Assembly: GCA_963930775.1 (NCBI GenBank)
Contig: OZ005706.1
Span: 4,020,545 to 4,084,544 of the forward strand
DNA from: Cliona cf. orientalis
Taxonomy: Eukaryota; Porifera; Demospongiae; Clionaida; Clionaidae
Direction of reading: 5' to 3'
Length of the DNA stretch: 64,000 nt
The notes beneath the pieces are model-generated. The model was not told the origin of the DNA, searched no databases, and was given only the letters and a program-made list of their open reading frames with translations. Of this stretch, positions 27,742 through 60,465 are shown piece after piece. Position numbers and translations under genes: made by a program. Within the stretch, counting starts at the first letter, position 1. Every line of letters begins with the position of its first letter.

Positions 27742-27851
27742 GCATGGCGGGCAGAGGCGTGCCCGTGTGATTGCGCATGCGTCAGCATTACATTTTACTT
27801 GGCCTTCCTACGGTAACGTTAACTTCGGTTTACGCTTGTAAACCCCATTTA
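27652..27851 (-). repeat. Split direct repeat A1
   Basis: 5' end of the element, matching A2. It contains the ATG at 27741 from which the first open region begins, so A2 carries the same start. Confidence 0.9.
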
Positions 27852-31558: not shown

Positions 31559-32120
31559 ATATGCTCCCCAATGCCCAAATAAATCCATTCGGGGTAATTC
31601 CCAAATCAAAGCCAACCAGGGAAGTGGTGGCTGATTGTTAATCTTTCAGCCCCAGATAACTTTAGCCTCAATGATGGCATAGATGGGGGCCTTACTTCTC
31701 TGACTTACATCACCGTAGATGACATGGTGGCTCTTGGGAAGGGAGCTCAATTAACCAAAATGGATGTTGAGTCAGCCTTCCGCATCATTCCGGTCCACCC
31801 AGAGGATCGGCCGCTATTGGGCATGAAGTGGAAGGGTCTGCTCTACATTGACCAAACACTCTCATTCGGCCTTAGGTCAGCCCCAAAAATATTCAACTCG
31901 GTTGCTGACGCCCTAGAGGGGATTGTGAGAGCTAGAGGAGCTAAGCTAACCTGGATGACTTCGTCGTAATCGGCACGCCAGCATCAAGCGAATGTGCACG
32001 TAGTCTAGAAACTCTCCTCGATGCCTGCAAGGAGCTCGGTATCCCGGTAGCAGCTCACAAATGCACTGGCCCAACAACATGCCTGGTTTTCCTGGGCATA
32101 CGGATCGATACGGTGAGCAT
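31227..32120 (+). pseudogene. Reverse transcriptase remains (second retroelement)
   Basis: Recognisable by KMDVESAFRIIPVHPEDRP, LSFGLRSAPKIFN and the downstream LVFLGI-like box. Fossil; not a working gene as it stands. Confidence 0.75.
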
Positions 32121-32429
32121 GGAAGTCACCTTGCCAGAAGAAAAGCTGGATCAACTTAAAAGTCTTCTCACAGCCTGGAAGGGAAGAAAAGACTGCACCC
32201 GCAGAGAGGTCCAATCACTAATTGAGCACCTCCAACATGCCGCAAAAGTGGTGCGTCCAGGGAGAAGGTTTATTCGGGGCATGCTTTCATTGCTCCAAGG
32301 ACTCGAAAAGCCACATCATTACATCAGGCTCAACACATCTTTCCGGGCAGACCTGCACTGGTGGCAGACATTCATCTCATCTTGGAACGGGGTATCGATC
32401 TTATATCGCCTCAACCGGCAAGCCCCAGA

Positions 32430-32950
32430 CTCAGAATTCCACACAGACGCTTCGGGTTCATGGGGTTGCGCAGCACTGTGGGAAGGACACTACTTTCAAC
32501 TCCCATGGGCGTCCTGCCCCTCTTTTGCCTCAGCATCAATTGCCCCTAAAGAATTATTTCCAGTTGTGATTGCCGCCCGGTACATGGGGCCATTATTGGT
32601 CGGGGAAAACGATCCTGTGCCATTTGGATAACAAAGCTGTGGTTAATGTGATTAACACAGGCTCATGTAAGGAATCTCATCTGGCTCATATGATGCGCTG
32701 CCTATTCTTTATCGAGGCGACGCTAAATTTCACTCTTACTGCAAGACACATTCCAGGAAAATGCAACTCGGATGCCGACACGCTCTCAAGAAATGGCATG
32801 CATTCATTTCTCTCCTCCCACCCACAGGCAAACCATCTCCCCACACCTCTAAGGCCAGCCCTGGTGCAGAACCTTACATCAGTGACCCCAGACTGGATGT
32901 CACCAGACTGGATCAAATCGTTCAGCACTTCCTTCATCGAGCTCTAGCCC
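32430..32950 (+). pseudogene. RNase H remains (second retroelement)
   Basis: Shows FHTDASGSWGCAAL, APKELFPVVIAARY, CHLDNKAVV and a DADTLSRNG end box, the RNase H order expected after a DIRS-type reverse transcriptase. Fossil. Confidence 0.75.
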
Positions 32951-33876
32951 CTTCTACCCGTCGTTCTTATGAGGCTGCCCACAAACGCTTCCCATCATTC
33001 TGTACAGAAACCCAATCAACCCCGCTCCCACTCACAGTAACATTATTATGCCGGTATGTGGCTAGCCTCGCGGATCAGATATTAAAATATCAAACTATCA
33101 AATGCTACCTATCGGCTGTGCGATTTTTGCAGATTATGTCTGGCTTTGGTGATCCCAACATGTCCTCCATGCCCATATTGGAGTGTCTACTTCGTGGCGT
33201 AAAACTGGAGCAAGCCAAGCAACAATCAGAGGCAGCTCGCACTCGGTTGCCAGTCACCCCTACTATTCTTCGTAGGTTATAGAGAGAGCTCGATATAGAG
33301 CCTTCCAAATGGGAAAATGTTATACTGTGGGCAGCTTGTTGTACCTGTTTATTCAGGTTCCTTCGGTCGGGGGAAATAACTGTCCCTACTCAAACAGACT
33401 ACGATAGCTCCACTCATCTCTCGTATGGTGGTGATATTATGTTCGATTCAAAGGCTTCTCCTACATTTGTCCAGGTGAACATCAAAGCTTCGAAAACTGA
33501 CCCATTTAGAAAAGGGGTCGCCATTTGCATGGGTCGTACCAATAACGATCTCTGCCCTGTAGCAGCCTTGGCAGCCTATGTCACTCTCAGGGTCTCCGGA
33601 GAAGGCCCATTGTTCATGCTTAAAAACCAGACTCCCTTAACTCGAGATCGCTTCATCAAAATGACAAGAGATAAGTTGTCAACAGCCGGCATAGAGGCAA
33701 GCCACTACTCTGGACATAGTTTTAGAATCGGGGCGGCAACAACCGCCTCAGCCTATGGTGTTGAAGACTCTCTGATTCAAACTCTGCGTCGCTGGAAGAG
33801 CGCAGCCTACCTGCTATATATTCGGGTCCCTAGAGAGAAATTAGCAAATTTATCTTCGTTACTAGCAAAAGAATAG
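32890..33876 (+). pseudogene. Tyrosine recombinase remains (second retroelement)
   Basis: The N-terminal core-binding part reads APSTRRSYEAAHKRF and LLCRYVASLAD. The catalytic part has HSFRIGAATTAS, LRRWKSAAY and a terminal YIRVPREKL. Same enzyme class as the recombinase at 23676-24470. Fossil. Confidence 0.8.
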
Positions 33877-35998: not shown

Positions 35999-36058
35999 GG
36001 TAGCTACTTGGTGTTGCAAGCACCAAACTATTACATTCATGTGGTTAATTAATTAAAT
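35999..36058 (+). repeat. Left outer terminal inverted repeat of the giant transposon
   Basis: Contains the palindrome TTGGTGTTGCAAGCACCAA and ends in TGGTTAATTAATTAA. Its inverse is at 50132-50189. Confidence 0.8.
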
Positions 36059-36106
36059 TAGCAATGTATTAATGCCCCTCGGGTGTATTACTGTTGCCTC
36101 TCCCTA

Positions 36107-37775
36107 CTGTGCACCTCCCCTGGTCTCCTAGGTCTCTGTAGTCTCCCCAGTCCCTTACTGTCTCCGTTAGTCTCCCACTCTTTTCTCTGCCTGCTCCCCA
36201 GGTCTCCTAGGTCTCTCTAGTCTCCCCAGTCCCTCACTGTCTCTCGGAGTCTCCCACGCTTTTCTCTGCCTGCTCTGCACCTCCCCCAGTCTCCTAGGTC
36301 TCTGTAGTCTCCCCAGTCCCTCGCTGTCTCTGTTAGTCCCCCACTCTTTTCTCTGCCTGCTCCCTAGGTCTCTCTAGTCTCCCCAGTCCCTCACTGTCTC
36401 TCGGAGTCTCCCACTCTTTTCTCTGCTTGCTCTGCACCTCCCCCAGTCTCCTAGGTCTCTGTAGTCTCCCCAGTCCTTCACTGTCTCCGTTAGTCTCCCA
36501 CTCTTTTCTCTGCCTGCTCCCCAGGTCTCCTAGGTCTCTCTAGTCTCCCCAGTCCCTCACTGTCTCTCGGAGTCTCCCACTCTTTTCTCTGCTTGCTCTG
36601 CACCTCCCCCAGTCTCCTAGGTCTCTGTAGTCTCCCCAGTCCTTCACTGTCTCCGTTAGTCTCCCACTCTTTTCTCTGCCTGCTCCCCAGGTCTCCTTGC
36701 TCTCTGTAGTCTCCCCAGTCTCTCACGTTAGTCTCCCTCTGCCTGCTCTGCACCTCCCCCAGTCTCCTAGGTCTCTGTAGTCTCCCCAGTCCCTCACTGT
36801 CTCTGTTAGTCCCACACTCTTTTCTCTGCCTGCTCCCCAGGTCTCCTAGGTCTCTCTAGTCTCCCCAGTCCCTTACTGTCTCTCGGAGTCTCCCACTCTT
36901 TTTTCTGCCTGCTCTGCACCTCCCCCAGTCTCCTAGGTCTCTGTAGTCTCCCCAGTCCCTCACTGTCTCTGTTAGTCTCCCACTCTTTTCTCTGCCTGCT
37001 CCCCAGGTCTCCTAAGTCTCTCTAGTCTCCCCAGTCCCTCACTGTTTCTTGTATAGTCTCCTACTCTTTCTCATATCTCCCTGGTCTCCTTGGTGTCTCC
37101 AGTCTCTCACTGTCTCCATTGGTCTCCCACTCTTTCCTCTGCCTGCTCAGCACCTCCCCCGGTCTCGTTGGTCTCTCTAGTCTCCCCAGTCCCTCACTGT
37201 CTCTTGTAGTCTCCCACTCCTTTCCTGTACCTCCCATGGTGTCGTTGGCCGCTCTAGTCTCCCAAGTCCCTCTCTGTCTCCATAAGTCTCCTACTCTTTC
37301 CTCTCCCTGCCTTGGTGTCCTTGGTCTCTCTAGTTTCCCCAGTCCCCCACTGTTTCTTGTATAGTCTCCTACTCTTTCTCATATCTCCCCGGTCTCCTTG
37401 GTGTCTCCAGTCTCTCACTGTCTCCATTGGTCTCCCACTCTTTCCTCTGCCTGCTCAGCACCTCCCCTGGTCTCTTAGGTCTCTGTAGTCTCCCCAGCCC
37501 CTCACTGTCTCTCAGATTCTTACACTGTATTCTTTTCCCTGCTCCGGTCTCGTTGGTCTCTCTAGTCTCCCTGTCTCCCTAATCCTACTCTTTCCTCCCA
37601 CTCCCTGGTCTCCTTGGCCTCTCTAGTCTCCCCAGTCCCCAACTGTCTCTTGTATACAGTCTCCCACTCTTTCCTTCGCTGTGCTCTGTTCTCGTTGGTC
37701 TCTCTAGTCCTCCCAGTCTCTCACTGTCTCCTAACTCCTTGCCTCTCTAGTTTGCCCAGTCCCTCACTGTCAGAA
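36107..37775 (+). repeat. Left minisatellite array (CT-rich strand)
   Basis: About 20 imperfect units of 80-90 bp built from GTCTCCCCAGTCCCTCACTG, TAGTCTCCCACTCTTTTCTC and CTGCCTGCTCTGCACCTCCC. Reads through as Ser/Leu-rich frames that are shadows of the repeat, not proteins. Inverse of the array at 48478-50042. Confidence 0.9.
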
Positions 37776-37995
37776 TTGCACTCTAAAGTTGTTGCATGAT
37801 GATAATAAACTGAATGTAAAATCACAGTATTAGAATCATTGGGATATTTAAATAATTGGAGTCGAAAAACAAGGGTAATTGAATAACAATATAGGAAATC
37901 AAGAATTAATGGACTTTGGTTGAATAATAGTTGAGGAAAATGATTATCATATGGTGTGATTGATCATGATGTCAGTGAGAGTATGTAGGTCATTA

Positions 37996-40900
37996 TTAAA
38001 GTAGAGGGTTGTCTCGATCCAGTTGTTTGTTCCAATTTGGCAACAGTGTGTTGCTCCTCGTAGACCTCTTCGCTTTGGGAGTCTCACCCTTGTAGCCTTT
38101 CCTTTTGCGTCCAGTGGTATACATGAGACTAGACTGTTGAGTGCCCGGAGCAGCAGGCATAGGTTGGACGTCAATAGGTGGCTGTTCCTGTTGAGTGCCC
38201 GGAGCAGCAGGCCTAGGTTGGACGTCAATAGGCTGGTTTGGTGGCTGTTCGTGTTGAGTGCCCGGAGCAGCAGGTTGGACGTCAATAGGCTGGTTTGGTG
38301 GCTGTTCGTGTTGAGTGCCCGGAGCAGCAGGTTGGACGTCAATAGGCTGGTTTGGTGGCTGTTCGTGTTGAGTGCCCGGAGCAGCAGGTTGGACGTCAAT
38401 AGGCTGGTTTGGTGGCTGTTTGTGTTGAGTGCCCGGAGCAGCAGGTTGGACGTCAATAGGCTGGTTTGGTGGCTGTTCGTGTTGAGTGCCTGGAGCAGCA
38501 GGTTGTGTGGTGTTCATCTGGTTGTATGAAATTTCCTGTGATTGCATATCTGATGCTGTAGTATTTGGCTGGTTGGTGATTACGTCTTCTTGCAAGTCAG
38601 CAGTTATTTGCTCAACCAGAAACATTTGGAATCCTTGATCCGCCATTAAGCCATCCAATGGAGATGTATCTATTTCTTGACTTTCATCTGATGACACTGC
38701 AGTCCATGGTGGATCTGTTTCTGTGTATCCACTGTTGGAATGATTTGTACCTGCATATGTAAAGGCAAGAATGTTACAGAAAACTCAATTATGTGGATAC
38801 TGAAGAAAAGTAGGATAATGTATGACACATCATACGTGAAAGCAGCATGATGCTTATTAACTACAGATGCTTCTTAGAATATGACGAAGTCGTGATGATC
38901 CGAAGGCTCCACATGTTTGACATTATAAAAATGATATTTGTCGAAAACAGAACAGTTTCAAGACTTCCAACCATCAAGATTATGTTGTATGAGTGATTTA
39001 CGTTTAGAGAGATCATCTACACCCAAACAATTACACACCGAACTAGCAAGACGTGATACCACTCATCTACAAAGCGGCCGCTATTCTGCACTATATTATC
39101 CATGGCCTACTACACAAACATTCTGTACTGTTCCAGCTATTCGTATAAGCTCTCTCTACCCTTGTTGCCTGTGTCAACCTCAACAGTGAGCCCATGTACC
39201 ATAGGATCGATCATCACTGAGTACAGAAGGGTATTCTCTGACAATAGGTTGTCATGGGACACCATAGTAAATGCCGTAATTAGCTAGCTATGTAACACCA
39301 GGCTCTGAACAGATTGCGTTACTGGCTTATAGTTGATCAACTCATATGATGCAGAAAACTTTTTTGTTTGCTAAGTGGTGTCTTTCCCCATGATACAAGC
39401 CACTTAAGACCATGTCTACAGCTGACACTATCTAAGTTTAATATCCTCTGTAGTTTTGGGATAGAGCCTTGCTAGGCATAGTTTCAAGTATACTTACCAA
39501 GGTCTCTGTGTGGGTTGTCTTGTGCACATGTGTTGGGAGTTGCTTGTGGTGCACTTTCTGCTTGTGTACGTCCTCCACTGTTGGAACTTGTAGCTGCAAG
39601 GTACAGTGTATACATGCATGAATATTATGTCAGCTTTTCTGAATAGCTTAATCGTATGTGACTTGTGCTCTGCTAGGCAAATAAATATTCATGCACATCA
39701 CTGCTGACATGAGTTGGATGTCGTGTGGGAGCTTGTATGATCGTGTGACTTCAACTGGTCATACTAGCTTGTTTCTGCGGTAGAGTGTATTTCTGTACTG
39801 AACTATATTAGTGGTGTCAAAGTGTTGGTGTGAGTCCCTGGGTATCATCTGTGACAAATGGTATGGCTCTTTAGTTCTGTTTGGTTAATGTTGCAATGTA
39901 TATATGCTGGCATGGAAAAAAGGGGGAAACGTGGACACCATTATTTGTGCATACGTACCTCCAGTTTTTACCCAGGTATACCGTAGGACGGATTTTAAAT
40001 GCGTGGTTTAATGATTGCGCTGTAGGCAAGTCTGGCCAAAGTACGAATCCAATAATTGCAAAGGTCGACCCCGTACCGTATAATAGTATAGGCGCACGTT
40101 TGTGTTTGCGAATCGTGAACGTAGGCAAAACTCGCAATTCGCAATTAATAGATACTCGCAATTAAAACCCGGCATACGGTATTTAGCAATTGCTATTATT
40201 CAGATAATGCTATTGTGTGTACAGGGTTGCATACAGGATTGTTTTTCTGGAAGGGGGAAATCTCGCAGATGACTTACTGTGTACGTGTTTCTATATGCGA
40301 CGCTGCCACTAGTAAACAATCATTTCTAGAGGTCCAGTGAGTCAAATGTGAATAGTGGTAGTGAATAATAGTATATGCACCACCTTACCAACCACATAAT
40401 TAGTTAGACACCGTTTTGGGGATTTCTACTTGATTTAGAAGACCATGTATATGTAGAATCCCGAGCGAAGCGAGGGTTCCACGGAGCCTGAGCTTGTAAA
40501 TCCCATAGAAACTGACTAAAGTACATAATTTGAATAATTAGTGTGGAATTCTGGGGGGACTCAAGCTGGAGGGGGGAAATCCCAGTGCGCCCCCCCCCCT
40601 CTGTATGCAACCCTGGTGTAGCATGTACATGTACCTTTCTGAAGTTTCTCCCGCAGTTCACTAGGGATCCTATCCAGCCACACAACAGTACATTTTCTTG
40701 AGTAGCTGTTCGAGGGTCTTCTCACGACACTGTCGGTACTGCCTCTGGGGACGAAGTCCTTTGAGATGTTGTTATTCCCAAATCCTGTTGCTTTGACGGA
40801 GTCTTTTATTTGCTTTGTTGTCGATGACAGGTGGGAGGCTATGTCGTCAAGAATTATAGCAACAACATCCTTCCCTTGGTACTGCACACCAGTTCTCAAT

Positions 40901-43784
40901 GATTGCAGAACCTACACAAGCATACTTATGATTATGCATGGGTCAATAATGAGCAATATACTACTACTTTATGCCACATATAGACGTGTGTAGGTACGTA
41001 CATAAAGCATAGGAAAGACATTGATTCATAAACTCACTTGGTAAAGTTCCTGATTAGCTGCCCACTTTAAGGCCTCTTCGAGAGCCTGGACGACTCTGCT
41101 GTCATCTGCATTGGCCGACATCTGACTACCAGAAAGTTGAAAGAGTGGTTTTATCTCAGATGAGAGAAAATGCTCCAGCTCCTCGACCGTGAGGCTGAAC
41201 TGAGCCTGTTCAACAAGCTGTGTGTATATGAAGTACATGTTCAAGTTACTGACAAGCATCACTTTGAACAATTAACGAGCCCTAATCATCTTTACAATAT
41301 CAGGGTTCTCCCTACACTGGTCGGTTTTGGTAACTATTAACCACCTCTCACTCCAAAATTATATAGCACCACTAAAGCCAATTTACCAGTACTAAACAAT
41401 ACAAATTTCATGAAATACTCATAAATTTTTGGAGATACTGGAGCAATTTTTACCACTTCTCAATTTTTTTGGGGAGAACCCTGCAATAATTATAGTGATG
41501 CCTGTATGGATGCAGCAGACTAAAGCCAATAAACATAAAGCTAGCAAACTTTAATCAAGCAGCACGGTCTCAGCAACAACAGAAAACTGGCTGTACTTAA
41601 TACTTAACTTAAAATGACAGCACATACCTTCTGAGCAAAATACATCAGTAGAGAATATCCCATGCAGAGACGAGGGTCAACCCCTGGTAGGAGCTCCTTT
41701 ACACGTGACAAAACAGGTCCTGCAACATTACATGCATCCACTTGTGCAAGTGTCTTGCCGAGACTGATATGGCCCATCCAACTGCCCGACTTGCATCTTT
41801 TTGCGCTTCTGTTAGTTGAACAAAAGCCGCCACTTCTTCATCGTTTGCTGGACCGATGGTTGGAGTTTGAAAGGGGATGATCAGTGCTCGAGACCTGTAC
41901 CTGTAATAATGAAATAGAATGTTGAGAGCATCCTATTTATACACACTTAGATCATAGTTGTAACAAAAGCTGTAATGTCGTTGGTCAGAACTGAAGTTTT
42001 AAATACACACATAGACTACTTGTAAACTCTCATAGACCATTGTAAATTCTCATAGACTACTTGTAAACTGGCTGCCATAGCGGGCACTAGCTATAGTATC
42101 TAAATACGTCAGACTGTGATTCATAGGTATTTAGAAGACCTCAGGCACTCCGTAAAACCCTTACTTTGCTATAGTTCTAGGTGAGTCCTTGAGTCTTCTA
42201 AATAACACAAACAATCCTTATACAACGGTCTCACTCTTATATACGTACCTCCCAATGTGTTGCAAATTAAAATTGCAGCACAGAATAGGAATAGATCTCG
42301 GTTTCCTTAGACCCACTTTCATGTTTCCTGAGAGTCCACCATTGCAGAGTTGGATGAGTAGCTCACCGATGTCGTCTGCATTTTTGGGGTCATCTAGGCC
42401 AAATGGAAGCGTTGACTTGACAACTCGTTCCATCACAATGCTGTCAGATGTCCCTTTCGTCTTCATTAGGTGTCCATTGTTGTGCTGTCCGCATATGCTT
42501 AGAGCACAACGCATTGCTGTGGATTTTCCTGAACAATAGCAGTATACAGTGATGTGCACGTTATTTCATACATATGCTCATGCATATGACTGTAGTGTAC
42601 AACCTGTGTACCTGTTTCAATATCTCCATACAACAAAGGTATTGGACACGCACGATAGATATCAATTATCGTCTCATAGTGCATTGCCATAACACAAGAA
42701 GCCAGAGAAAAAACACCTGCAAACAGATAAATCATGCGTTAGATTACACAATGCTTGGCTGAAGATATATTGGCTTGTACTTACCTGCAATGAAGTTGTG
42801 TTTGAGTGTGGCCTGCATAGTAGTAAGTAGGTTCAGTAGAGGCTGGCGAGACTGAAGTGGGGTCGTGATTTCCGACTTGATGTCGATGGTGCCCGCACTT
42901 CCACCTTTTCCATACACTAGTTGAATGCATGGACCACCTATAGGTGTCCAAGAAAATTCGCTTCTACCATGCTGCAGTAGCTCCCCATCTTCATTGACTT
43001 GGACAGTTTCATTAAGCACCCAAGTGCTTGTTGCAGGCTGCCTTCCAACACATGTAACCCCTTTCTTCACCTTGTTCGCATCGCTAAATGGGAAGCCTCG
43101 CTCCAAATAGTTGTGGAAGTCTGCTAGTTCCCTTTCTGAAAACGAGCAGACGAAACCTCCGCTCCCAAAAGTGGATCGAAGTTCGCTCATGAATCTCTGC
43201 TTGAAGAGAAGCGAGTCGCATGTGTAGTAACAGAGCCTGCATAGTATACCAACAAGACATTACTCAGCCACAAAAGAGTACTTGGGAATGACATGGACAA
43301 TGTACCTACTTATGCAAAAAATTAAATTATGCGTTTGGCTTACTTCTTCTCTCTGTTGCTGGCTTTGGTGATCCAGACAAAGAAACCTGTGTTATCGCCA
43401 GCTTCGACATATGTTTCCAATTTCATTAGAAAGTTGGACTTTGCCTTGTACTCGTTTTTGGCCGACACACTTCCAAAATTACATTTTTCAACATCTACCC
43501 GAAAAGCCTGTATCACATAATAGTCACAGTCACATCAGCATTAAAAACAACACCAAGGCAAATGAATGTAGAATTCCTCTGTGAACATGCATGCAGCTGA
43601 GGTGTTTGCATAAGCCTTTAGGCTTGCGTTACTATGTCTATAATTATATTTTATACATCCCATTAGTCAAGGTGAGCATTCATGTAGATTAACTTACTTC
43701 TTTTTCAGCGTTCACTGATTGACCTGCTCCCTCCGGTTGAGCTGCAGCACTCTCTGCAGGCGATTCTGAAGATGCTCTGTCCAT
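37996..43784 (-). CDS. P-loop ATPase (DUF927-like) with PAAPGTQ-repeat tail, transposon cargo
   Basis: Ten exons join by GT-AG introns with matching phases: 43698-43784, 43344-43507, 42785-43236, 42612-42716, 42249-42528, 41628-41900, 41038-41217, 40635-40911, 39498-39593 and 37996-38750, about 889 residues. Exon 6 needs one extra base to stay open. After an N-terminal part (FRVDVEKCNFGSV) comes a Walker A loop split by an intron (GDIETG then KSTAMRCALSICG, about residue 265). Next come a TKGTSDS stretch, a Walker B-like LPFGLDDP (about 312) and an IPILCCNFN sensor-like strand. This order recalls DUF927 ATPases of phages and plasmids; the link is inference. The tail has seven 19-residue repeats and a basic GRKRKGYKG signal, suggesting a nuclear protein. 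It lies downstream of the transposase on the same strand. It may assist transposition, or it may be captured cargo. Confidence 0.75.
38131..38508 (-). repeat. 57-bp coding minisatellite (PAAPGTQHEQPPNQPIDVQ)
   Basis: Seven in-frame units, the last two shortened, inside the final exon of the ATPase gene. Neighbouring units are nearly identical at the DNA level, so the array is recently expanded. The encoded stretch is Pro/Gln-rich and probably disordered. Confidence 0.85.
39981..40179 (+). mobile_element. CCGTA-type MITE (GCAATTAATAGA subfamily), TA flanks
   Basis: 199 bp with ends CCGTAGGACGGATTTTAAAT and, inverted, CCGTATGCCGGGTTTTAATT, flanked by TA. The body matches 52048-52254 closely (CGAATCCAATAATTGC, GACCCCGTACCGTA). 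It sits in an intron of the ATPase gene, so it inserted after that gene was in place. Confidence 0.75.
40222..40615 (+). mobile_element. CAGGGTTGC MITE, copy 2, with GTGTA target duplication
   Basis: The ends CAGGGTTGCATACAG and CTGTATGCAACCCTG are perfect inverses, flanked by GTGTA on both sides. It carries a fragment of the 85-bp hairpin repeat near 40431-40500. It ends only 20 bp from the 3' edge of ATPase exon 8 (40635), so it lies close to that splice donor. Confidence 0.75.
42128..42210 (+). repeat. 85-bp hairpin repeat, copy 2
   Basis: ATTTAGAAGACCTCAGGCAC pairs with GTCCTTGAGTCTTCTAAAT around AAAACCCTTACTTTGC. Same plan as 16597-16682. Lies in an ATPase intron. Confidence 0.55.
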
Positions 43785-44040
43785 AATACAGCACTGCACC
43801 AAATTAGACTGGTGTGCTAGCTGGTAGCTAGGTAGCAGCGAGAGACTTTGGGGACCACAAACGATGAGAGGTAAGAGTCCTGGTTCACCTTGAATGCAGC
43901 ACTGCACCAACTTAGACTGGTGTGCTAGCTAGTAGCTAGGTAACAGCGAGAGACTTTGGAAACCACAATGAGAGGTAAGAGTCCTGGTGTATACTTCAGA
44001 ATCAAAATTCACCTTGAATGCAGTACAACCTGAGTGTGCA
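43785..44040 (+). repeat. Tandem duplication upstream of the ATPase start
   Basis: Two copies of about 115 bp (from GCACTGCACCAAMTTAGACTG through GCGAGAGACTTTGG to AATGAGAGGTAAGAGTCCTG). They immediately precede the ATPase ATG on the minus strand, so they fall in its 5' untranslated or promoter region. Confidence 0.65.
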
Positions 44041-44049
44041 TGCTGTATA

Positions 44050-44256
44050 CCGTATAGCGGGAAATTTTCGAGGGAGAAAACTTTCGCGGATCGGTAGGAA
44101 AGGAGCATTTCGCGGAGAAAACTTTCGCGGAATGTTAAAACTGGTCGAATAATGGGTGTGGCATGCCTAGAATTTCGTGGAGAAAACTTTCGCGGATGGC
44201 GGAAAAATCGCGAAATTCGTGAAAGTTTTCTCCCTCGAAAGTTTCCAGCTATACGG
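44050..44256 (+). mobile_element. CCGTA-type MITE (GAAAACTTTCGCGG subfamily), TA flanks
   Basis: 207 bp; the left end CCGTATAGCGGGAAATTTTC and the inverted right end CCGTATAGCTGGAAACTTTC are flanked by TA. The internal motif GAGAAAACTTTCGCGGA occurs three times. It lies just upstream of the ATPase gene inside the giant transposon. Confidence 0.75.
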
Positions 44257-44794
44257 TATACTGCACATACATGTTGGTATCGCCTGAAACTTGTTAACGA
44301 GGTCTGCTATAGTAGACATCTGTCTGTATATGCCACCTCTGTGGGTGTGTTAGAGACCTGAGAGACCATGGAATTTGCTTTTGCATTTCCTTCCATTCTT
44401 TGTGTGCTTGGAATTATTTTTGTCTACCTTCTTGTATATCCATTTGAACGATATTCAGTGGTGGCAGAAGGTTGTGTGGCAAGCTTGTATAGCTATACTT
44501 GAATAATTACAATATGTCAAGTACATGTATGGCGACGCAACCACCTGACAAGTGAATCCATCAACAGGGCCACCTTCAACGAGTGGTATGCATGAAGAAA
44601 GTGGTATAACAAATGCCACTACCACTTTTGCTGCCCATGATATAATAAATAGTGGTGATCCAGTTTTGGATTCCTTTGCCCAACTTCTAAGCAAAAAGTA
44701 TTATAGTGGATCACTGGCTGCAAAAAGACACGTAGCCTACTCCTACCACTTGACACTCAGGATACTACTTAGCATCTGATTAAGTCAGCATGCA
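44257..44794. other. Intergenic stretch inside the giant transposon
   Basis: A plus-strand frame of 75 codons (44552-44779, beginning MNPSTGPPSTSG) looks composition-wise like coding sequence but has no recognisable domain or splice partners. I leave it as unassigned. Confidence 0.35.
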
Positions 44795-45245
44795 GCAGTC
44801 TGACTTATTCACAATTCAATCAGTACTGACCAGCTAGTGCTATAGAAAGGGTAACCTCCTTTTTTATGTCAGTGTAGAGACCAGAAAATCTGCAGTAGCC
44901 ACAACGTTTTTCAAGTTACAACATATTAAGGTGTTAATCACTTGACAATGAATTACAAATTACCTATATGTGCAGTACTGGAGACTGCAGGAGACCAAAG
45001 ACACCATCATTATTACTATAATCTCAACCATCTGCTTATTCACAATTCAATCAGTACTGACCAGCTAGTGGTATAGAAAGGGTAACCTCCTTTTTCATGT
45101 CAGTGAAGTGACTGTAATTTAAGTGACCATAGAGACCAGAAAATTTGAACAAGCCACAACTTTTTATAAGGTGTTAATCACTTGACAATGAATTACAAAT
45201 TACATATAGTGCAGTACTGGAGACTGCAGGAGACCAACTACATCA
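44795..45245 (+). repeat. Tandem duplication between transposase and ATPase genes (unit about 230 bp)
   Basis: 44801-45025 and 45033-45245 share CACAATTCAATCAGTACTGA, TATAGAAAGGGTAACCTCC, AAGGTGTTAATCACTTGAC and TGGAGACTGCAGGAGACCA in the same order. The block lies between the 3' end of the transposase and the 5' end of the ATPase gene. Confidence 0.75.
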
Positions 45246-45393
45246 TCATTATTACCTAACCCCAACGTCTGCTATTGAAGTTGTTAAAAACTCAGCAGTT
45301 GAAGAACAATGGTTGACCAATCACCAGTTTGAATACAAATTTAGTCATGGACAAAAGCAACAAAGTCACGCATACACTGATCCAAAATGTATA

Positions 45394-47385
45394 CTAATTC
45401 ACTGAAAAATAATTGGTGCCACCACAAACATTTGATACCTGTTCCTCTTTCAAGAAATGATCAAGTTTAGCTTTCACTTGACTTGTTGCCTTTATTGATA
45501 GTATGTCTGACATAAAATCAGTTGTTCTAATGGATTCATACATGTCAGCAATTTCTTCCACCTTTAACGCAGACTGCTGATTTCTGAAATACTCCACAAT
45601 AGACAGAAATACGTAATGTTCGTGAGGTGTCCATATCCCTGACATTGTTTGTTCGTTTTGCACCTTCATAAACTTCCAACCAGAAACTTTTAAACTATCT
45701 TGATCTGGATGACGTGGTCTCTTCTTTCGGGTTACCCTACTGTTCTCTTCAGGGAGCTTCTGATTGGGTCTTACCCCATACTTGTTACCACAATTTTGGC
45801 ATCTACATCTGTCAGAACAACCTGTGTTTGATTTAAGACATGGGCATCTTGATGCATATGCTTGCTCAGCCAAGCAGTTTGTTCGTTCTAAATTCTTTAC
45901 ATTTCTACCACGGCCACATCTACATCCACTGCCAAGTGTCACAGAACTTTGAATTTCACCATCGGAAAATTCGGTGCTTGACACATTTCTTTCTTTCTTC
46001 CTGGCTAGAGAGTAGTGACCACTGCCTTTGTGGAGGTAAGCTAGATACAGAGGGTTTTCAGTGAGTGGTGGGAATCGTGTGTGAACAGGAATATGTGGCC
46101 AACTCACTATTGATGTGAACACAATAAACTGGATATGTAGAACATTAGCGAGTCCAAGAAGCATAGCATCACCTAGTGAGCTAGCGTACATACCTGACTG
46201 ACGGTAGTGTTCAGCCTCTTCATCAAAGGTGCTGATCGGAAAGAAGGGACGGTAATCTGCCTTGTTCTGTAGCCATTCTTGGACCATGGCTCCCCTCAAC
46301 TTCAGGATTATGCTTTGTGTTGTTGAGCTCTCATCAATATCAAGCGATTTCAGATGTTGGACAAAGTCACTGGAAGTCTTTAGACATTCTTTTATGTACA
46401 GAGCGATCGATGTAAACAAGCAGTCACCGTCAGCAGGAACATCAACCAACTCGAGGTCAAAGGAACGTAAGACATTAATAAGCCTTTGTTGATCACTGTC
46501 AGCATATTCCTTCTCTACCAATGAGAGTGCATTTCCAAGCTGACATGGTAGAAGCCTTGATACTTTACAGTGTGTATCGGACAGGTTGTTTAGTACTTCC
46601 TCAGCATATAGTGAACTGAAAGCATGATGTAAAATTCCGTACACTGTTTCACTCAAACCTCCTTTGTCCTTTTCTTTAAATATTTGGTGTAGAGCACCAC
46701 ACGTATTTTTTAATGCTTGTTTTGGTTGGCCAACGTTGTTGTGAGTGTACACACGTTTAGATGAAACTCCGATTCCAAATCCATTTGAATATGAACTCTC
46801 GGAACTTTCTGCCCTACAAATAGTTCCTCTGCCTTTCATGCTTGATGCTAGCTCAGCCAAAAAAGTCGCTGGTGTTGATACTATTTTACATCCTTTGCGT
46901 TTACTGTTCCACGAATGAAAAAACGTTGCCAATAAGGCAACTGCAACTTCCACTCCCAAACAGCTACCTGTAAGTCTCTTATTCAATGACCTATGCAAAT
47001 TCTCATTTCTGTTTGTTCCAAAGTGTGGAGGTATTCCACTTAAACAACCCCGTGCAATATGCACTTTCAATTTGACAAGTTCATCCATCACAGACTTCGT
47101 CATTATTGGCTTTCCATTTTCATCAACTATTTTGTTCCATTTTGAAACGTATTCATCTGCACCAGGTGAAGGGGTATGCTTTGTTCTCTGAAGTCCATTG
47201 TCACCAAGACTTCGAAAAACAAGCCTAAACTCCTGAACTGCGGGGTAGAAATAAGGATGTCTTTTAGAAAAAGCACTGGTTACCCTTTTTACCGCATGAA
47301 AAAGATCAAGTTTGACTTCAGTTTGCGCACCAAATGTACCTGTCAACTTTTTCTGCCACATGCAGCAGTTATCAATTATAACCAT
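45394..47385 (-). CDS. Transposase C-terminal part: DDE second and third acids, OTU protease, CXC, SANT-like
   Basis: 663 codons. Residues 1-150 hold the second acid (VIIDNCC, D5), an LDLFHAVKR stretch and the third acid in GTNRNENLHRSLNKR (E128), the D/E order of DDE enzymes such as MULEs. Residues about 310-460 are an OTU cysteine protease: VPADGDCLFTS with Cys322, ending GSGHYSLARK with His457. Residues 488-541 form a CXC/tesmin-like cysteine cluster (CRCGRGR, CPCLKSNTGC, CRCQNCGNKYG). The end carries a SANT-like WTPHEHYVFLSIVEYF. The first catalytic Asp lies in the adjoining upstream frame (47402-48397), offset by one base, so either one base was gained or the frames are joined by slippage. 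Known for OTU: removal of ubiquitin-like tags. Its role in a transposase is unknown. Confidence 0.8.
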   Translation of the reverse strand: MVIIDNCCMWQKKLTGTFGAQTEVKLDLFHAVKRVTSAFSKRHPYFYPAVQEFRLVFRSLGDNGLQRTKHTPSPGADEYVSKWNKIVDENGKPIMTKSVMDELVKLKVHIARGCLSGIPPHFGTNRNENLHRSLNKRLTGSCLGVEVAVALLATFFHSWNSKRKGCKIVSTPATFLAELASSMKGRGTICRAESSESSYSNGFGIGVSSKRVYTHNNVGQPKQALKNTCGALHQIFKEKDKGGLSETVYGILHHAFSSLYAEEVLNNLSDTHCKVSRLLPCQLGNALSLVEKEYADSDQQRLINVLRSFDLELVDVPADGDCLFTSIALYIKECLKTSSDFVQHLKSLDIDESSTTQSIILKLRGAMVQEWLQNKADYRPFFPISTFDEEAEHYRQSGMYASSLGDAMLLGLANVLHIQFIVFTSIVSWPHIPVHTRFPPLTENPLYLAYLHKGSGHYSLARKKERNVSSTEFSDGEIQSSVTLGSGCRCGRGRNVKNLERTNCLAEQAYASRCPCLKSNTGCSDRCRCQNCGNKYGVRPNQKLPEENSRVTRKKRPRHPDQDSLKVSGWKFMKVQNEQTMSGIWTPHEHYVFLSIVEYFRNQQSALKVEEIADMYESIRTTDFMSDILSIKATSQVKAKLDHFLKEEQVSNVCGGTNYFSVN

Positions 47386-47401
47386 TTTCAGGTTCTTCTC
47401 C

Positions 47402-48391
47402 TTAATACTTGATCATTCGATACTTTAGTGATTCCATTCCATCTTGTATGGAACCATAACTGGTTCCCATAGATAACTGCCAAAACAACACTCGGCCCAC
47501 TTCATCCTGTACGATAAATAGAGAATCGTACTGAGGGACCCACTTCCCACATTTGTGAATTCCTATATGGGCGGCCAGTTTAAAAGTGTGGTCGCAGCTA
47601 ATGACCTCAGAACTAAGATCAGCCATGTCACGAAACATCAAGTGCTTAAATTCATTGAAACTGATGATAAAAATATTACTTATTAGATCATTGCTGATGT
47701 ATGTGGTAGGAAGAGAAGGACAATTGCAATCCGATTGAGTGAGAAAAATAGTTTGGTGTGTGTACACAAGCTGTTGCTGTGCATAATGATCTTGAACAGA
47801 CCACAGAAGTAAAGTCTCAATATCTGAGAAGGACTTTCCTTGTGAGCATAGTTGGAAAACGAGACGTTGCAACTGACGTGTTATTCCACACTTATGCAAT
47901 AGTACAAACGGGATTACTTCTCTTTCAGGAAAGTGGTGCAATATACGTGGATCGCATGCCGTGATCATGTGGCCACGTGAACAGCAATAAATTGGGCAAA
48001 CTAAAACTACACATCCATTAATTCCGTAAAGGCATCTAGGATTGTACCTCTTCGTTGAGCCATCTTGCCATTGCATAAACTTGATGTTACAATCACAACT
48101 CTCTTCTGAACATGATAGTGGCAAACTATCCCTGAACAGTATTGGAAACTGATGGATTGGGTCCCACATTATCACCTCAGGTAGGAAGAAGCGATGAACT
48201 TCATTCTCGTCAATATTCACACTCACTTCAGGTATGGAAAGAATGTTCACTATCATTGGAGGAAGGGTACAGGATTTGTGGTGAGCAATAACCTTGACAA
48301 TATAGGGATGCCATTCGGGTTTGAAACCAAGAGAGAAACAGCTGCTGTACACTTGACTCAACAAAAGAACAATAAGCACTACTTTCATCAT
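47402..48391 (-). CDS. Transposase N-terminal part: cysteine-rich module and first catalytic Asp
   Basis: About 329 codons from the ATG at 48391 (a GTG lies two codons earlier). The text may really begin after a splice acceptor near 48340 (GTGTACAGCAG), because the first 20 residues are hydrophobic and unlike the rest. Residues about 95-150 form a Cys-rich module (SCSEESCDC, CLYGINGC, CPIYCCSRGHM). Next comes HHFPEREVIPFVLLHKCGI, a pattern shared with other animal transposases of this kind in my recollection. The first catalytic Asp is in VISCDHTFKLA (D269 counting from the GTG). It ends 17 bp before the downstream frame; dropping one T in the junction would make the two continuous. Confidence 0.75.
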   Translation of the reverse strand: MMKVVLIVLLLSQVYSSCFSLGFKPEWHPYIVKVIAHHKSCTLPPMIVNILSIPEVSVNIDENEVHRFFLPEVIMWDPIHQFPILFRDSLPLSCSEESCDCNIKFMQWQDGSTKRYNPRCLYGINGCVVLVCPIYCCSRGHMITACDPRILHHFPEREVIPFVLLHKCGITRQLQRLVFQLCSQGKSFSDIETLLLWSVQDHYAQQQLVYTHQTIFLTQSDCNCPSLPTTYISNDLISNIFIISFNEFKHLMFRDMADLSSEVISCDHTFKLAAHIGIHKCGKWVPQYDSLFIVQDEVGRVLFWQLSMGTSYGSIQDGMESLKYRMIKY

Positions 48392-48477
48392 GATCACAGA
48401 TCACTCACAACTACCAACAGTTGCTGAAAGAGATTCTATCAGAGACTCCACGTACGGAAAATGAGTTCAGTAGAAAT

Positions 48478-50042
48478 ACAAATTAGAACCAAGGAGAGAC
48501 AGTGAGAGACTGGGGAGGAAAGAATAGGAGACTACAAGAGACAGTGAGGGACTGGGGAGACTAGAGAGGCCATGGAGACCAAGAGGAAAGAGTAGGAGAC
48601 TTAGGGAGACAGTGATGGACTAGGGAGACCAACGAGACCATGGGAGGTACAGAGAAAGGAGTGGGAGACTCCGAGAGGGAGTGAGGAACTGGGGAGACTA
48701 GAGAGACCCAGGAGACCAGAGCAGGCAGAGGAAAAAGTGGGAGACTAACGGAGATAGTAAGAGACTGGGGTGAGATACGTGCAGACCAGGGAGAAGAAAA
48801 GAGTGGGAGACTACAAGAGACAGTAAGTGACTGGGAAACTAGAGAGACCAAGGAGACCAGAGAGATACATGCAGAGCAGGGAGAGGTAAGAATAGGAGAC
48901 TACAAGAGACAGTTTGGGACTGGAGAGACTAGAGAGGCCAAGGAGACCAGGAGGAAAGAGTAGGAGACTTAGGGAGACATTGCTGGACTAGGGAGACTAA
49001 GAGACCAACGAGACCAGGGGAGGTACAGAGCAGGGAGAAGAAAAGTGTGGGAGACTACAAGAGACAGTGGGGGACTGGGGAGACTACAGAGACCTGTGAG
49101 ACCAGGGGAGGTGCTGAGCAGGCAGAGGAAAGAGTGGGAGACTAACAGAGACAGTGAGAGATTGGGGAGACTAGAGAGACCAACGAGACCGGGGAAGGTG
49201 CACAGCAGGGAGAAGAAAAGAGTGGGAGACTAATGGAGACAGTTAGGGACTGGGGAGACTACAGAGACCTGTGAGACCTGAGCAGGCAGGGGAATGAATG
49301 GGAGACTAACGGAGACAGTGAGAGACTGGGGAGACTATAGAGACCAACGAGACCGGGGGTGGTGCACAGCAGGGAGAAGAAAAGAGTGGGAGACTACAAG
49401 AGACAGTGAGGGACTGGGGAGACTACAGAGACCTAGGAGACCAGGGGAGGTGCTGAGCAGGCAAAGGAAAGAGTGGGAGACTAACGGAGACAGTGAGAGA
49501 CTGGGGAGACAAACGAGACCGGGGGAGGTGCACAGCAGGGAGAAGAAAAGAGTGGGAGACTACAAGAGACAGTGGGAGACTGGGGAAACTACAGAGACCA
49601 GGGGAGGTGCTGAGCAGGCAGAGGAAAGAGTGGGAGACTAAGGGAGACAGTGAGAGACTGGGGAGACTAGAGAGACCAACGAGACCGGGGAAGGTGCACA
49701 GCAGGGAGAAGGAAAGAGTGGGAGACTACAAGAGACAGTGGGGGACTGGGGAGACTACAGAGACATGTGAGACCAGGGGAGGTGCTGAGCAGGCAGAGGG
49801 AGACTAACGTGAGAGACTGGGGAGACTACAGAGAGCAAGGAGACCAGAGGAGGTGCAGAGCAGGGAGAATAAAAGAGTGGGAGACTACAAGACACAGTGG
49901 GGGACTGGGGAGACTACAGAGACCAGGGGAGGTGCTGAGCAGGCAGAGGGAAGAGTGGGAGACTAATGGAGACAGTTAGGGACTAGGGAGACTACAGAGA
50001 CCAGGGAAGTGCACATCAGACAGAAAAAAGAGTGGGAGAGTG
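48478..50042 (-). repeat. Right minisatellite array (GA-rich on the plus strand)
   Basis: Same 80-90 bp unit as 36107-37775 but inverted (GGGACTGGGGAGACTACAGA, AAAGAGTGGGAGACTA, GGGGAGGTGCTGAGCAGGC). With the left array it makes the long arms of the giant transposon. Confidence 0.9.
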
Positions 50043-50131
50043 GAGTACAACACTGGGAGACATATGGGACAAATAACAGTTTAATATAATGAATGAATGA
50101 ATTTAATTAATTAATTAATTAACTAATTTAA

Positions 50132-50189
50132 TTAATTAATTAACCACAAGAATGTAATACTTTGGTGCTTGCAACACCAAGTACCTACC
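50132..50189 (-). repeat. Right outer terminal inverted repeat of the giant transposon
   Basis: Reads TTAACCACAAGAATGTAATA then TTGGTGCTTGCAACACCAAG to GTACCTACC, the inverse of the left end. A run of TTAATTAATT separates it from the array. Confidence 0.8.
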
Positions 50190-53265: not shown

Positions 53266-56200
53266 AAGAGAAAGTTACACACTAAATAGAAAAAAAAAGC
53301 ATATTAATTCTAAATAATTGTGCGTTATTTAGAAACTCTCAAATTGGAGTATAGGTTGTTTCCTTTGTATAGCTCTACTATGCATCCTAGGTGTATTATG
53401 TGGTTTTCTGGACAATTTTTTTTTTTGCTTAGTATGTATGCTAGCTTGTTAAACACTACTAAGTGGGTAGAAAAAGAAATAATTCATAGGGGAACTGGGA
53501 ACACTTAACCTACTTGGGGATGTGATTTTTACATGGGCACGCAGAATGGGTCAAAATACATTTGACGGCGGAAAATTTGATTCACACCTTAGAATTAGGC
53601 ACTTTAAAGTATTCCCATATGTTTGTATAGGGAAGCCATGCAGTTGCAATGTTTCCGCCCACGCTCGCACAGTAACGTGACGACCTTTACCCACTTCAGT
53701 TAAAGTTGATGTATAGGCTGTGATTGTGCACGTTTCAGGACAATTTTTTTCTGCTTAGTGTGTGGTCTCCTTGTTAAACACTAAGTAGAAAAAATAAATA
53801 ATTCATGGAAGAACTGGGAACACTTGGGGATGTAATTTTTACATGGGCATGCAGAATGGGTCAGAATACGAAATTTGATGGCGGGGAATTTTGATTCACA
53901 CCTTAGAATTAAAGTTATGGCACTTTAAAGTATTCCCATGTTTATAATGTTATAGGGAAGCCATGCATTTGCAATGTTTTCCGCCCACGCACTACGTGAG
54001 GGGCTGGGCCATGCGCACACATATTAACGTGACAACCTTTACCCACTTGGTTAAAATTGATGCATAGGCTGTCGGCTTGCATTGTATGGCTCTACTATGC
54101 ATCCAGCTCGACTATGTGGATATTTGTGGACAATTTTTTCTGCTTAGTGTGTGGTCTCCTTGTTATGTGGGTATTTCTGGATAATTTTTTTTCTGCTTAG
54201 TGTGTGGTCTCCTTGTTATACACTACGTAGAAAAAAATTAATTCATGGAGGGATTGGGAGCACTTGGGAATGTAATTTTTACGTGGGCACGCAGAATGGG
54301 TCGAAAAACAAGATTTGACATGAGAAATTTTTGATTCATGCCTTAGAATTAAAGTTACGGCCCTTAAAGTTTACCCATATGATTGTATATAGGGAAGCCA
54401 TGTGCTTGCAATGTTTTGAGTCCCGGTATGCGTTATTTAGAAAATCGCTAGGCCAGTACATGCATAGGCTACCATGCAGCTGGTATTGTATCCAGAGACT
54501 TGCTGAATGAATGAAGAATCAACCACAACAGTAGCTCGCCCATTTTTGGTGAGAGAGGTGGGGTAATACAGCTATAGTTTTACATTTTGCATGCATATGG
54601 ATGTGTGGGAAAGTACATCGAGTTGAGAAATATAACTAAAATTGTTTTGTGCTTTTCCCCTAGCCTTGTATGTGTGCTGTGGTGATCTTGAGTACTAGTA
54701 GGAAGTAACGTGTTGCAGGGGCCACTGGTACTGAACCTCAACACTGATCATATACTCTGAGTTTTCTAGGCTCTACTAGGAGCATAGACGCCTGCTTTCC
54801 GATGATTGTATGGATCTATTAAGCATCCAGCTCAACTATGTGGTAGTTTCTGGACAACTTTTTCTGCTTAGTGCGTGGTCTCCTTGTTATACACTAAGTA
54901 GAAAAAAAAGAAACTATTTAATTACACACTAAGTAGAAAAATAAAATGAAATAAAAATGCAAGGGGGGGGGGGGGGTTTGGGAGCGCATTTCAGGAGATA
55001 ATTTTTACATGGGCACGCAGAATGGGTCGAAACTAGAGATTTGACCCTGGTGAGTTTTGATTAATTAAAGTTACGGCCCTTCAAAGTTTTCCCATGTTTG
55101 TATAGGAAAGCCATGCGTTTGCAATATTTTCCACCCACGCATTACGTGAAAAACGGGGAATACCCGTGGTGTGTGTTATTTAAACATTTCTCAAAATTGG
55201 AGTATAGGTTGTTTACATACTTTGTATGGCTCTACTGTGCATCCTGTGGTTTTCTGGACAATTTTTTTCTGCTTGGTGTGCACGCTAGCTTGATAATTGA
55301 ATAAATAATTAAATAATCTAATTCATGGAGGATTTGGGAGTACTTGGGGGACATAATTTTTACATGGGCACGCAGAATGCGTCGAAACTAGAGATTTGAC
55401 CAAGGGGAATTTTGATTCACACCTTAGAATTAAAGTTATGGCCCTTTGAAGTTTCCCATGTTTGTACAGGGGAGCCACACATTTGCAATGTTTTCTGCCC
55501 ACGCGCTATGTGAGGGGCGGGGCTACGTGCGTACATATACGTGACGACCTTTACCCAATTTGATCAAAATTGGCATACAGGCTGTCTCTTTGCATTGTAT
55601 GGCTGCAGTTTTCGGACAATTCTTTTTTTTCTGCTTAGTGTGTGGTCTTGTTACACACTAATTACACACTAATTACACACTAAGTAGAAAAAAAAGAAAT
55701 AATTCGTGGAGGAATTGGGAGCACCTGGGAACGTAATTTATACACGGGCACACAGAATGGGTCAAAATACGAAATTTGATGGCACGGAATTTTGATTCAC
55801 ACCTTAGAATTAAAGTTATGGCACTTTAAAGTATTCCCATATGTTTGTATATAGGGAAGCCATGCGTTTGCAATGTTTCCCACCCACGCGCTACGTGAGG
55901 GGCGGGGCTTAGCGCACACATAAACGTGACGACCTTCACCAACTTTTGACAAAATTGAAGTTTAGGCTGCCTGGTTGCATTGTATGATTCTACTATGCAT
56001 CCAGCTCGATTGTATGGTGGTTTCTGGACAATTTCTTTTCTCCTTATTGTGTGGTCCCCTTGAAAAAAAGAATTTAAGTAATTAATGTTTGGGGGGGGGG
56101 GGGTTGGGAGCACTTGGGGAGATAATTTTTACATAGGCATGCAGAACGGGTCGAAACTAGATATGGTTTTCGGACAATTTTTTTTTCTGCTTAGTATGTA

Positions 56201-57003
56201 TGTATGTGGTCTGCTTGAAAAAATTATATACTACTAATACACTAAGTAGTTATATACTAATACTAAGAAAAAATCAAAATATAATAATTCGTGGGGGAAC
56301 TGGGAGTAGTTGGGGACATAATATTTACATGTGCACGCAGAATGGGTCGAAATACGAAATTTGATGGCATAGAATTTTGATTCAATTAGTTACGGCCCTT
56401 TGAAGTTTTCCCATAATATTGTTTGTATAGGGAAGCCATGCGTTTGCAATGTTCTCTGCCCACGCGCTACGTGAAAAACGGGGAATACCCGTGGTGTGCA
56501 TTATTTAGAAAAATTTTCAAAATTGGAGTATATAGATTGCTTGCTTTGTATGGCTCTACTGTGCATCCTAGGTGTATTATGTGGCTTTCTGGACATTTTT
56601 TTCTGCTTAGTGTGCATGCTAGCTTGTTACAAAGTAGTTACACAAGAATAAAAATTCACGGGGGGTTTGGGAGCACTTGGGGAGATAATTTTTACATGGG
56701 CACGCAGAATGGGTCGAAACTAGAGATTTGACCTTGGGGGATTTTGATTCACACCATAGAATTAAAGTTACGGCACTTTAAAGTTTCCCCATATGTTTGT
56801 ATAGGAAGCCAAGCATTTGCAATGTTTTGAGTCCCGGTGTGCGTTATTTAGAAAATCGCTAGCTAAGTGCATGTATAGGCTACTATGCAGCTGGTATTGT
56901 ATCCAGAGGCTTGCTGAATGGATGAACAACAGTAGCTCTCCTTTTTTACTGAGAGGTAGGTGGGGTACAAGTACAGCCATAGTTTTACCATGTGTATGCA
57001 TGC

Positions 57004-59535: not shown

Positions 59536-60465
59536 TAAAAGAGCCTGGCCAACCTGCTTAAATGTAAGTACACAACGTCATGCTATTTTTATACCTATGT
59601 GCCCCTACTCTGTACCTGTCATCTCATTGTTAAACCTATCCTTTTAGGGACAAATGTTCCTGTCTCATCACATGCAACTTGAACAAAATTATGATATATC
59701 CCCAATCACACTCCATAACTGCCATGCAAGTTAACAAAACTTGCCTATACTAGCTACATGCAAATACTTTTCGACTATCACATTAATTATCAGATAGTCT
59801 CATACATAACCGGGGCCACCTTTTAGCTAAGTTGTTAAAAAAAGCAAAAGCTATGTGAATAGAATTCAGTAACTACGTTTAGATTTATAAGTCATAGTTG
59901 AATTATTTTTTAGGTATTATCTCCTCAGTGATTCTCTCACAAGGACTTATAGTAACTGTCCATATTAAATATAATTATTTATGGTATGACCCTCTGTTAG
60001 TTTTCATGGTTACGTATCTCCCCTTAGTTATACTGTCACTATCACTGAAGTCGATCCTCTATAGCAGCTGTGATCTTGTTCCTATATCATCATCTATGCA
60101 ACTGGGTATATACTATACCATGGCCAAAACTCAAAAAAGGAAAAGATTCTCTATGAAAAAAATGATAATAATAAAAAATAAGAGAAAAGATTGATCCGAA
60201 AATACACAAAATTATAAAAAATGCCCCTCCCCTGTACCCTATCTCTGCTCTCTAACCTCTCCCGCTCTCTTCTCCCATTTTGCTGATTACATCTTATACA
60301 TCTCTAATAATCTAATGATTATTATTATTGAATACTTGTTGTGTCATAGTGACACCATTAATAATTTTACCTTTGTTTCTACACTACCACAATTATTATC
60401 CATTTCTTATTAATTTAATATCATACTTATTGTATTTGTTTAAACTTTTATTTATTTCAAAGAGA
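59536..60465. other. Centre between the inverted clusters, no supported gene
   Basis: AT-rich. A 98-codon plus frame (59898-60194) is hydrophobic with two or three membrane-like segments, ending in a Lys-rich tail. It has no recognisable family and a composition close to translated AT-rich DNA, so I do not call it a gene. Confidence 0.35.

Follow-up and report, generated by a model that had tools for sequence, protein, structure and literature searches.

A 14-kb element at positions 35999-50189 of the 64,000-base stretch of Cliona cf. orientalis contig OZ005706.1 analyzed here (hereafter, the window, which contains no N) is, on balance, probably a decayed copy of a large DNA transposon that was once autonomous and followed a foldback-like plan. 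The element consists of short inverted ends, followed inward by inverted tandem arrays, with two minus-strand genes in the interior; long inverted repeats that contain tandem repeats and flank a middle domain are the hallmark of foldback-like elements, and a single DNA transposon is the likely best reading of this anatomy. The earlier note on this stretch knew of no described family with such a plan; the foldback-like elements Galileo, Tm1 and Tetris, as well as Rehavkus-1_TC, do have it, and what is new here is the size and the gene content. For a foldback-type element, the cargo is unusual: two large genes, of which one resembles a DNA-replication ATPase. Judging from the reading frames, an intact product of either gene is probably no longer made from the present copy.

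The left terminal inverted repeat outside the array occupies 35999-36055 (plus strand, starting with GGTAGCTACTTGGTGTTGCAAGCACCAA...) and its right counterpart lies at 50133-50189 (minus strand). The 45 bases from 35999 and those read inward from 50189 on the opposite strand agree at 42 of 45 positions, compared to 26/45 for the next-best place for this 45-base end in the window on either strand, which bears out the matching inverted ends originally described, and outward of 35999 and 50189 the inverted similarity fades. The exact outer boundary, 35999/50189 or 36008/50180, is uncertain, and the terminal sequence reads GGTAG, TACTTGG or TTGGTG, depending on the boundary chosen. When the ends are taken as TTGGTGTTGC (36008 and 50180), the flanks GTAGCTAC/GTACCTAC form an imperfect 8-bp duplication with 7 of 8 positions matching. 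These flanks are near-palindromic and indistinguishable from an extension of the inverted repeat. The chance of such a direct match at one position is 0.008, a figure that is conditional on the two flanks already matching as inverted sequences with one mismatch and that becomes higher over all the positions and lengths tried; the pair is a candidate target duplication only. A 6-bp flank pair, TAGCTA/TACCTA, matches at 5/6 positions and falls within the near-palindrome at the ends. No 9-bp duplication with at least 8/9 matches was found among 23 x 24 boundary positions, in a search that an old, mutated one could escape. A hairpin at each end was also considered and is not used as evidence, given that folds as good as that of the left end were obtained with 32 of 200 shuffles, and folds as good as that of the right end with 9 of 200.

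Directly inside the ends lie the left tandem array (36115-37731, plus strand, with an inner edge that is uncertain between 37731 and 37771) and, inverted relative to it, the right tandem array (48515-50039, minus strand). BLAST, Tandem Repeats Finder (TRF) and nhmmer agree that both arrays are made up of one unit, about 70-90 bp long, in opposite orientations, in line with the earlier claim, which gave the unit as 80-90 bp. In the TRF output, the monomer periods range from 68 to 90 bp, and there are longer ones of 155, 166, 175 and 234 bp, the 166-bp period of the left array corresponding to a dimer. The inverted self-comparison of the window that had been proposed as a check pairs the two arrays as mirror images: among the 40 of 139 inverted BLAST matches listed, those between the arrays span 1.4-1.6 kb at 73-76% identity, and the pairing of 36250-37675 with 50039-48516 extends over 1580 columns at 75%, with many shifted registers besides. 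With a single typed consensus and a threshold of E 0.01, nhmmer identifies 39 unit matches, confined to 36069-37679 (all plus) and 48518-50001 (all minus), that is, to the two arrays and the outer edge of the left one. The base bias of the arrays is opposite as well, the left array being pyrimidine-rich (C+T 0.765) and the right one purine-rich (G+A 0.766).

The relationships among the units allow us to address the history of the arms. The unit alignment included the 31 of 39 matches that cover at least 60 model positions (the 8 shorter ones were dropped), and the nearest-relative test was performed on 30 units, the edge unit 36069 having been removed beforehand. The mean identity of units is 0.825 within the left arm and 0.853 within the right arm. 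For 26 of the 30 units, the nearest relative resides in the same arm; with shuffled labels, the mean is 14.5 (standard deviation 3.2) and 3 of 10,000 shuffles reach 26, a figure to be taken as a guide rather than a probability because units within one arm are non-independent. Four units have their nearest relative in the opposite arm, three of them from the left array (36702, 37171 and 37251) and one from the right (48707). The cross-arm pair 36702/49833 appears to have two deletions in common and the pair 37171/48707 one (both from the alignment, by eye), with tree support of 0.864 and 0.897, respectively; as such opposite-arm pairs look to share deletions, the data suggest that both arms descend from one ancestral arm. 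In the left arm, units 36368 and 36534 are identical over the aligned columns, as are 36455 and 36621, an apparent sign of recent amplification there. The suggestion that gene conversion keeps the arms alike fares poorly: the preponderance of own-arm relatives argues that conversion is not the main force, and the unit relationships appear to leave little room for frequent recent conversion between the arms. In Galileo, the two arms of one copy differ in repeat number (PMC3573991; this and the other sources are cited from extracts), in agreement with the separate evolution of the arms proposed here.

The consensus unit carries two copies of AGTCTCCC, 29 bp apart. This motif occurs 28 times in the left array and 29 times in the right one, in all cases pointing inward, and 0 times elsewhere in the 64,000 bases on both strands. 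Neighboring copies are separated by steps of 29 bp in 19 cases, 49-50 bp in 7 and 58-59 bp in 12 (38/55 in all). Because AGTCTCCC was chosen by eye from the consensus, the count mainly restates the repetition, and we regard the motif as a putative protein-binding site. The proposal that the arrays hold many transposase-binding sites is plausible by analogy with Galileo, a member of the P superfamily from Drosophila, for which extra THAP-binding sites in the tandem repeats of the long ends have been demonstrated (PMC3688188).

Between the arrays, the two genes on one strand stand as originally described, in the sense that there are two minus-strand genes, but they do not correspond to two long open reading frames (ORFs): the long ORFs appear to belong to one broken gene, and the second gene is spliced. 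This second gene (gene 2 hereafter) provides the best supported protein assignment in the element. It extends from about 43784 to 37996 on the minus strand and includes eight exons within 40635-43784, with the borders drawn by eye from GT-AG sites and an open frame: E1 (43784-43698), E2 (43507-43344), E3 (43236-42785), E4 (42716-42612), E5 (42528-42249), E6 (41900-41628), E7 (41217-41038) and E8 (40911-40635). The seven GT-AG introns are partly built in because the borders were picked for these very features. A possible further exon lies at 39498-39593 (minus strand; splice sites and frame by eye), and the likely last exon, with an open frame, an acceptor chosen by eye and a presumed join, at 37996-38750 (minus strand). 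The latter would encode a basic tail and 19-amino acid (aa) repeats, which stem from a 57-bp minisatellite in the open frame (38177-38505, TRF; 5.7 copies, 96% matches). Within E6, the frame that enters differs from the frame that continues into E7 and E8, which suggests that the gene is probably broken once, inside this exon.

The E4-E6 region matches the PHROG profiles phrog_8841 (DNA primase/helicase; E 6.2e-6) and phrog_1139 (DNA primase; E 0.0051), as well as Pfam DUF927 (E 8.1e-4, 19.6 bits vs the cut-off of 22.6; E 0.0022 for a longer typed protein). None of the four controls, three shuffles and the reversed sequence, matches any PHROG at E 1. The loop GDIETGKST is completed only through the E4-E5 splice. 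Comparison of the exon 5 ORF alone to phages with tblastn yielded 0 matches, and the best match of gene 2 in the PDB by sequence has an E of 1.3. Matches to PHROGs of unknown function (phrog_35353, E 0.016; phrog_28681, E 0.024; phrog_14646, E 0.36) and the weak match to phrog_1829 (E 0.65) were set aside. By profile, then, gene 2 appears to hold an ATPase related to phage primase/helicases and DUF927. The DUF927 proteins are bacterial and phage proteins; the similarity to them and to the phage ATPases lies in the E4-E6 profile matches, whereas here the gene is spliced and resides in a transposon-like element.

Gene 1, the putative transposase, is represented by two minus-strand ORFs, a 5' part of 332 aa (47402-48400) and a 3' part of 672 aa (45394-47412), which overlap by 11 bases (47402-47412) in different frames and are most simply read as a single gene with one frame break. 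The candidate catalytic residues D, D and E, which we presume from motifs picked by eye, are located at 47593-47591 in the 5' part and at 47373-47371 and 47004-47002 in the 3' part, the possible second D and the E being 123 residues apart. The frame change falls between the first and the second D, and therefore a whole enzyme is not expected from the present copy unless translational frameshifting occurs; a programmed frame change, for which the single overlap would be the support, is not adopted here. Downstream of the presumed catalytic residues, there are an OTU-like region (46476-46002; E 0.0016 for the excised region and 0.031 for the whole ORF, 19.4 bits vs the Pfam cut-off of 23.3), in which we recognize by eye DGDC and GHY motifs that we take to be typical, and a CXC-like cysteine cluster (45924-45784; Pfam TCR/CXC, E 0.53). 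The best transposase profile on the 5' part, HTH_Tnp_ISL3, is not significant (E 0.12). Pfam was searched with both whole ORFs at E 1 and with three pieces and the 5' ORF at E 10; no PHD, MULE, THAP, integrase-core or KDZ match was obtained from Pfam, which includes KDZ transposase models, the HMMER filters dropping weak matches such that a very diverged domain could be missed. The weak Pfam matches to TFIIE_beta (E 0.095) and Peptidase_C65 (E 0.069) were set aside, and the sole NCBIfam match is to an unrelated enzyme (E 0.043). As no transposase profile matches significantly, it is the position, the motifs and the domain company that make gene 1 a probable transposase of the DDE type, with both an OTU-like domain and a CXC-like cluster. 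Just downstream of this gene, at 44799-45273, there is a direct repeat of about 240 bp (82.6%).

The placement of the genes bears on whether the element is one unit or a set of nested parts. The first ATG of gene 1 is 124 bp from the right array, and the stop codon in the last exon of gene 2 is 225-265 bp from the left array, depending on the inner edge of the latter; this tight fit favors one unit. Alternatively, the ends and arrays could represent a non-autonomous foldback element, with the two genes derived from another element or elements inserted in the middle, a scenario that we consider unlikely. The middles of foldback elements do vary, Tm1 including three kinds of element (PMC3169594), and other repeats did enter this interior: dispersed repeats that have counterparts elsewhere in the window inserted at 39979-40183, 40410-40615 and 42094-42206, and the segment at 44045-44261 is flanked by an inverted pair. 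However, the genes occupy the space between the arrays with short spacers, and a search of the interior (BLAST, word 9, E 1), which very short ends could escape, detected no inverted pair around the genes. The only two inverted pairs in the interior, at 44045-44261 and 40222-40615, do not enclose the genes; the former, located between the two genes, has inverted arms of 41 bp (95%), measures about 217 bp in all and looks like a small nested element.

Distinctly improbable is the explanation that chromosomal inverted minisatellites, or an inverted duplication, flank by chance a transposon-derived gene pair and that the whole is not mobile. It would be compatible with the absence of a certain target duplication and with the occurrence in the window of a second inverted array pair, 53319-56828 and 60447-62901, for which no ORF of at least 130 aa is listed; it is at odds with the unique outer 45 bases, which match at 42/45 outside the arrays, and with the loss of similarity beyond the two boundaries. 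Very improbable is an assembly artefact in which the ends of two copies were joined or the arrays misassembled, given that the left and right arrays differ in unit content, as two copies of a single contig would not. In favor of an artefact, tandem arrays are error-prone, and the genes contain one frame break and one probable one, as base-calling errors would give. There are also copies of Galileo in which the two inverted repeats differ and the flanks do not match (assembly was raised by the authors as a possible cause, with the scaffolds judged reliable; PMC3573991).

Several points weigh against the interpretation of the element as a single, once autonomous transposon. Joint movement of the arrays and genes is a presumption from the anatomy. 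Within the 64,000-base window, no second copy of the end sequence was found on either strand, and neither an empty site nor a clean target duplication was found, the best pair at 35999/50189 matching at 5/7 positions. In the case of gene 1, no Pfam, NCBIfam or PDB match marks the product as a transposase, the D, D and E residues were assigned by eye, the OTU score is below the Pfam cut-off, and the structure models of both ORFs are unusable, with a mean predicted local distance difference test score (pLDDT) of 35.7 and 33.4. In the case of gene 2, the exon borders were selected by eye, and the DUF927 score is below the Pfam cut-off. In the arrays, the alternation of different unit types in both arms makes the mean identity of units between the arms (0.828) about equal to that within the left arm (0.825); mean identities by themselves would show no separate evolution of the arms.

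Among the known systems, Rehavkus-1_TC from Tribolium, a MULE-related element of 9.5 kb whose inverted termini contain a 164-bp unit (PMC10218199), is similar in its large size and in the tandem repeats within inverted termini, the 164-bp unit being comparable to the 166-bp dimer here. Rehavkus is characterized by a minisatellite, a PHD finger, one ORF and 9-bp duplications (PMC6446971), in contrast to the two genes here; membership in Rehavkus was rejected, there being no MULE or PHD match in Pfam and no 9-bp pair with at least 8 matches. Galileo shares with the present element long, internally repetitive inverted repeats and independent change of the two arms but differs in that here there is a 14-kb, two-gene element with no THAP match and no clean 7-bp duplication; the lack of a THAP match in Pfam also led us to reject membership in Galileo. 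The target duplications in Galileo, Tm1 and Tetris are 7-10 bp long (PMC3573991, PMC3169594, PMC4079207). Tm1, a Mutator/Foldback element of root-knot nematodes, contains 13-15 bp tandem units in variable numbers, and Tm1-A encodes a 496-aa MULE/FLYWCH transposase (PMC3169594), whereas Tetris has tandem units of about 220 bp in its inverted repeats, and its copies are devoid of conserved ORFs (PMC4079207); both resemble our element in carrying tandem units in inverted repeats and differ from it in unit size and coding content.

Other comparisons concern the genes and the ends. In some Ginger1 families, an OTU domain is located at the C-terminus of the transposase; the core is of the integrase type, and the elements are 2.6-7.1 kb long with plain inverted repeats of 44-270 bp (PMC2836005). 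The similarity to Ginger1 would lie in the OTU-type domain, OTU-like and below the cut-off here; the difference is the lack of an integrase match, and membership was rejected in the absence of an integrase-core match in Pfam, as was membership in Zisupton/KDZ in the absence of a KDZ transposase match. IS3EU has a 6-bp target duplication and, in its fungal families that bear TET, TAYGG..CCRTA ends (PMC12730594); none of the terminal sequences of the present element fits TAYGG..CCRTA, and membership was likewise rejected. According to a 2026 survey of arthropod MULEs, the longest complete elements reach 9972 bp, and long ends may make several binding sites available (PMC13359780). Foldback-like elements, which have composite inverted repeats with tandem repeats, contain transposases of different classes (PMC3169594). 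There is thus a precedent for the plan, for the binding-site idea and for the OTU domain. Large DDE elements that carry replication genes are also known, among them Teratorn, in which a piggyBac-like transposon and a herpesvirus are fused, and Polinton-type elements. Neither literature searches aimed at the question nor other ones in passing, with Repbase outside the search, turned up a DUF927 or primase-helicase-like gene in an element of the foldback-like or small DDE kind.

If the element is a single transposon, the parts could cooperate as follows. The DDE-type transposase encoded by gene 1 would recognize the outer ends, and each array would offer about 28 inward-pointing short sites for the transposase or a helper, bringing the two ends together. 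The gene 2 ATPase might assist at the ends or in DNA synthesis for the repair or copying of the element, and the OTU-like domain might deubiquitinate proteins where transposition takes place. The arms, having originated from one ancestral arm, would since then have grown and become homogenized mostly separately, via unequal exchange or slippage within each arm. We entertain, as a tentative and rather doubtful extension, an undescribed superfamily that combines foldback-like ends, a DDE transposase with OTU and CXC, and a phage-like primase-helicase ATPase, with transposition by a route other than simple cut-and-paste; the ATPase would then drive self-copying in transposition or help to join the many array sites. 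Repetitive inverted ends have arisen with different transposases, and the present element, if a real unit, adds a very different gene set, raising the question of why the ends of a large element that has a helper gene should carry arrays of sites as well. A replication-type ATPase in a DDE transposon would bear on the copying or repair of large transposons after they move.

Relatives were sought by scanning collections of viral and genome contigs for exact degenerate peptides or patterns, animal genomes being outside the scope. The viral contigs contained no confirmed relative of the 5' or 3' part of gene 1 or of the exon 5 ORF of gene 2, and no confirmed match for the 22-base end or the degenerate GTNRNE..LHR pattern; the genome contigs contained no confirmed relative of the 3' part of gene 1. 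One pattern match (L001), in a Bacteroidia metagenome-assembled genome, lies opposite a 338-aa ORF and out of frame with the listed plus-strand ORF, and was dismissed as due to chance. For the proteins of the element, the search of the PDB by sequence gave nothing below E 1.3, and Rfam gave 0 matches at gathering scores.

Several other features of the window are worth recording. The arrays at 53319-56828 and 60447-62901 consist of units of about 378 bp, with 70-81% identity between the arms among the matches listed, and related sequence is present also at about 19775-20165. The minus-strand region 23676-27807 matches RVT_1 (E 9.5e-13) and contains a tyrosine-recombinase-like ORF (Phage_integrase, E 6.8e-5, below the cut-off); a more broken copy at 31945-33876 (plus strand) shows weaker matches (E 0.0091 and 4.9e-4), both below the cut-off. 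We take both to be DIRS-like retrotransposons. Near-identical repeats (98.7-99.5%) at 22840-23554 and 27652-27852, around the first of these, are possibly its split direct repeats.

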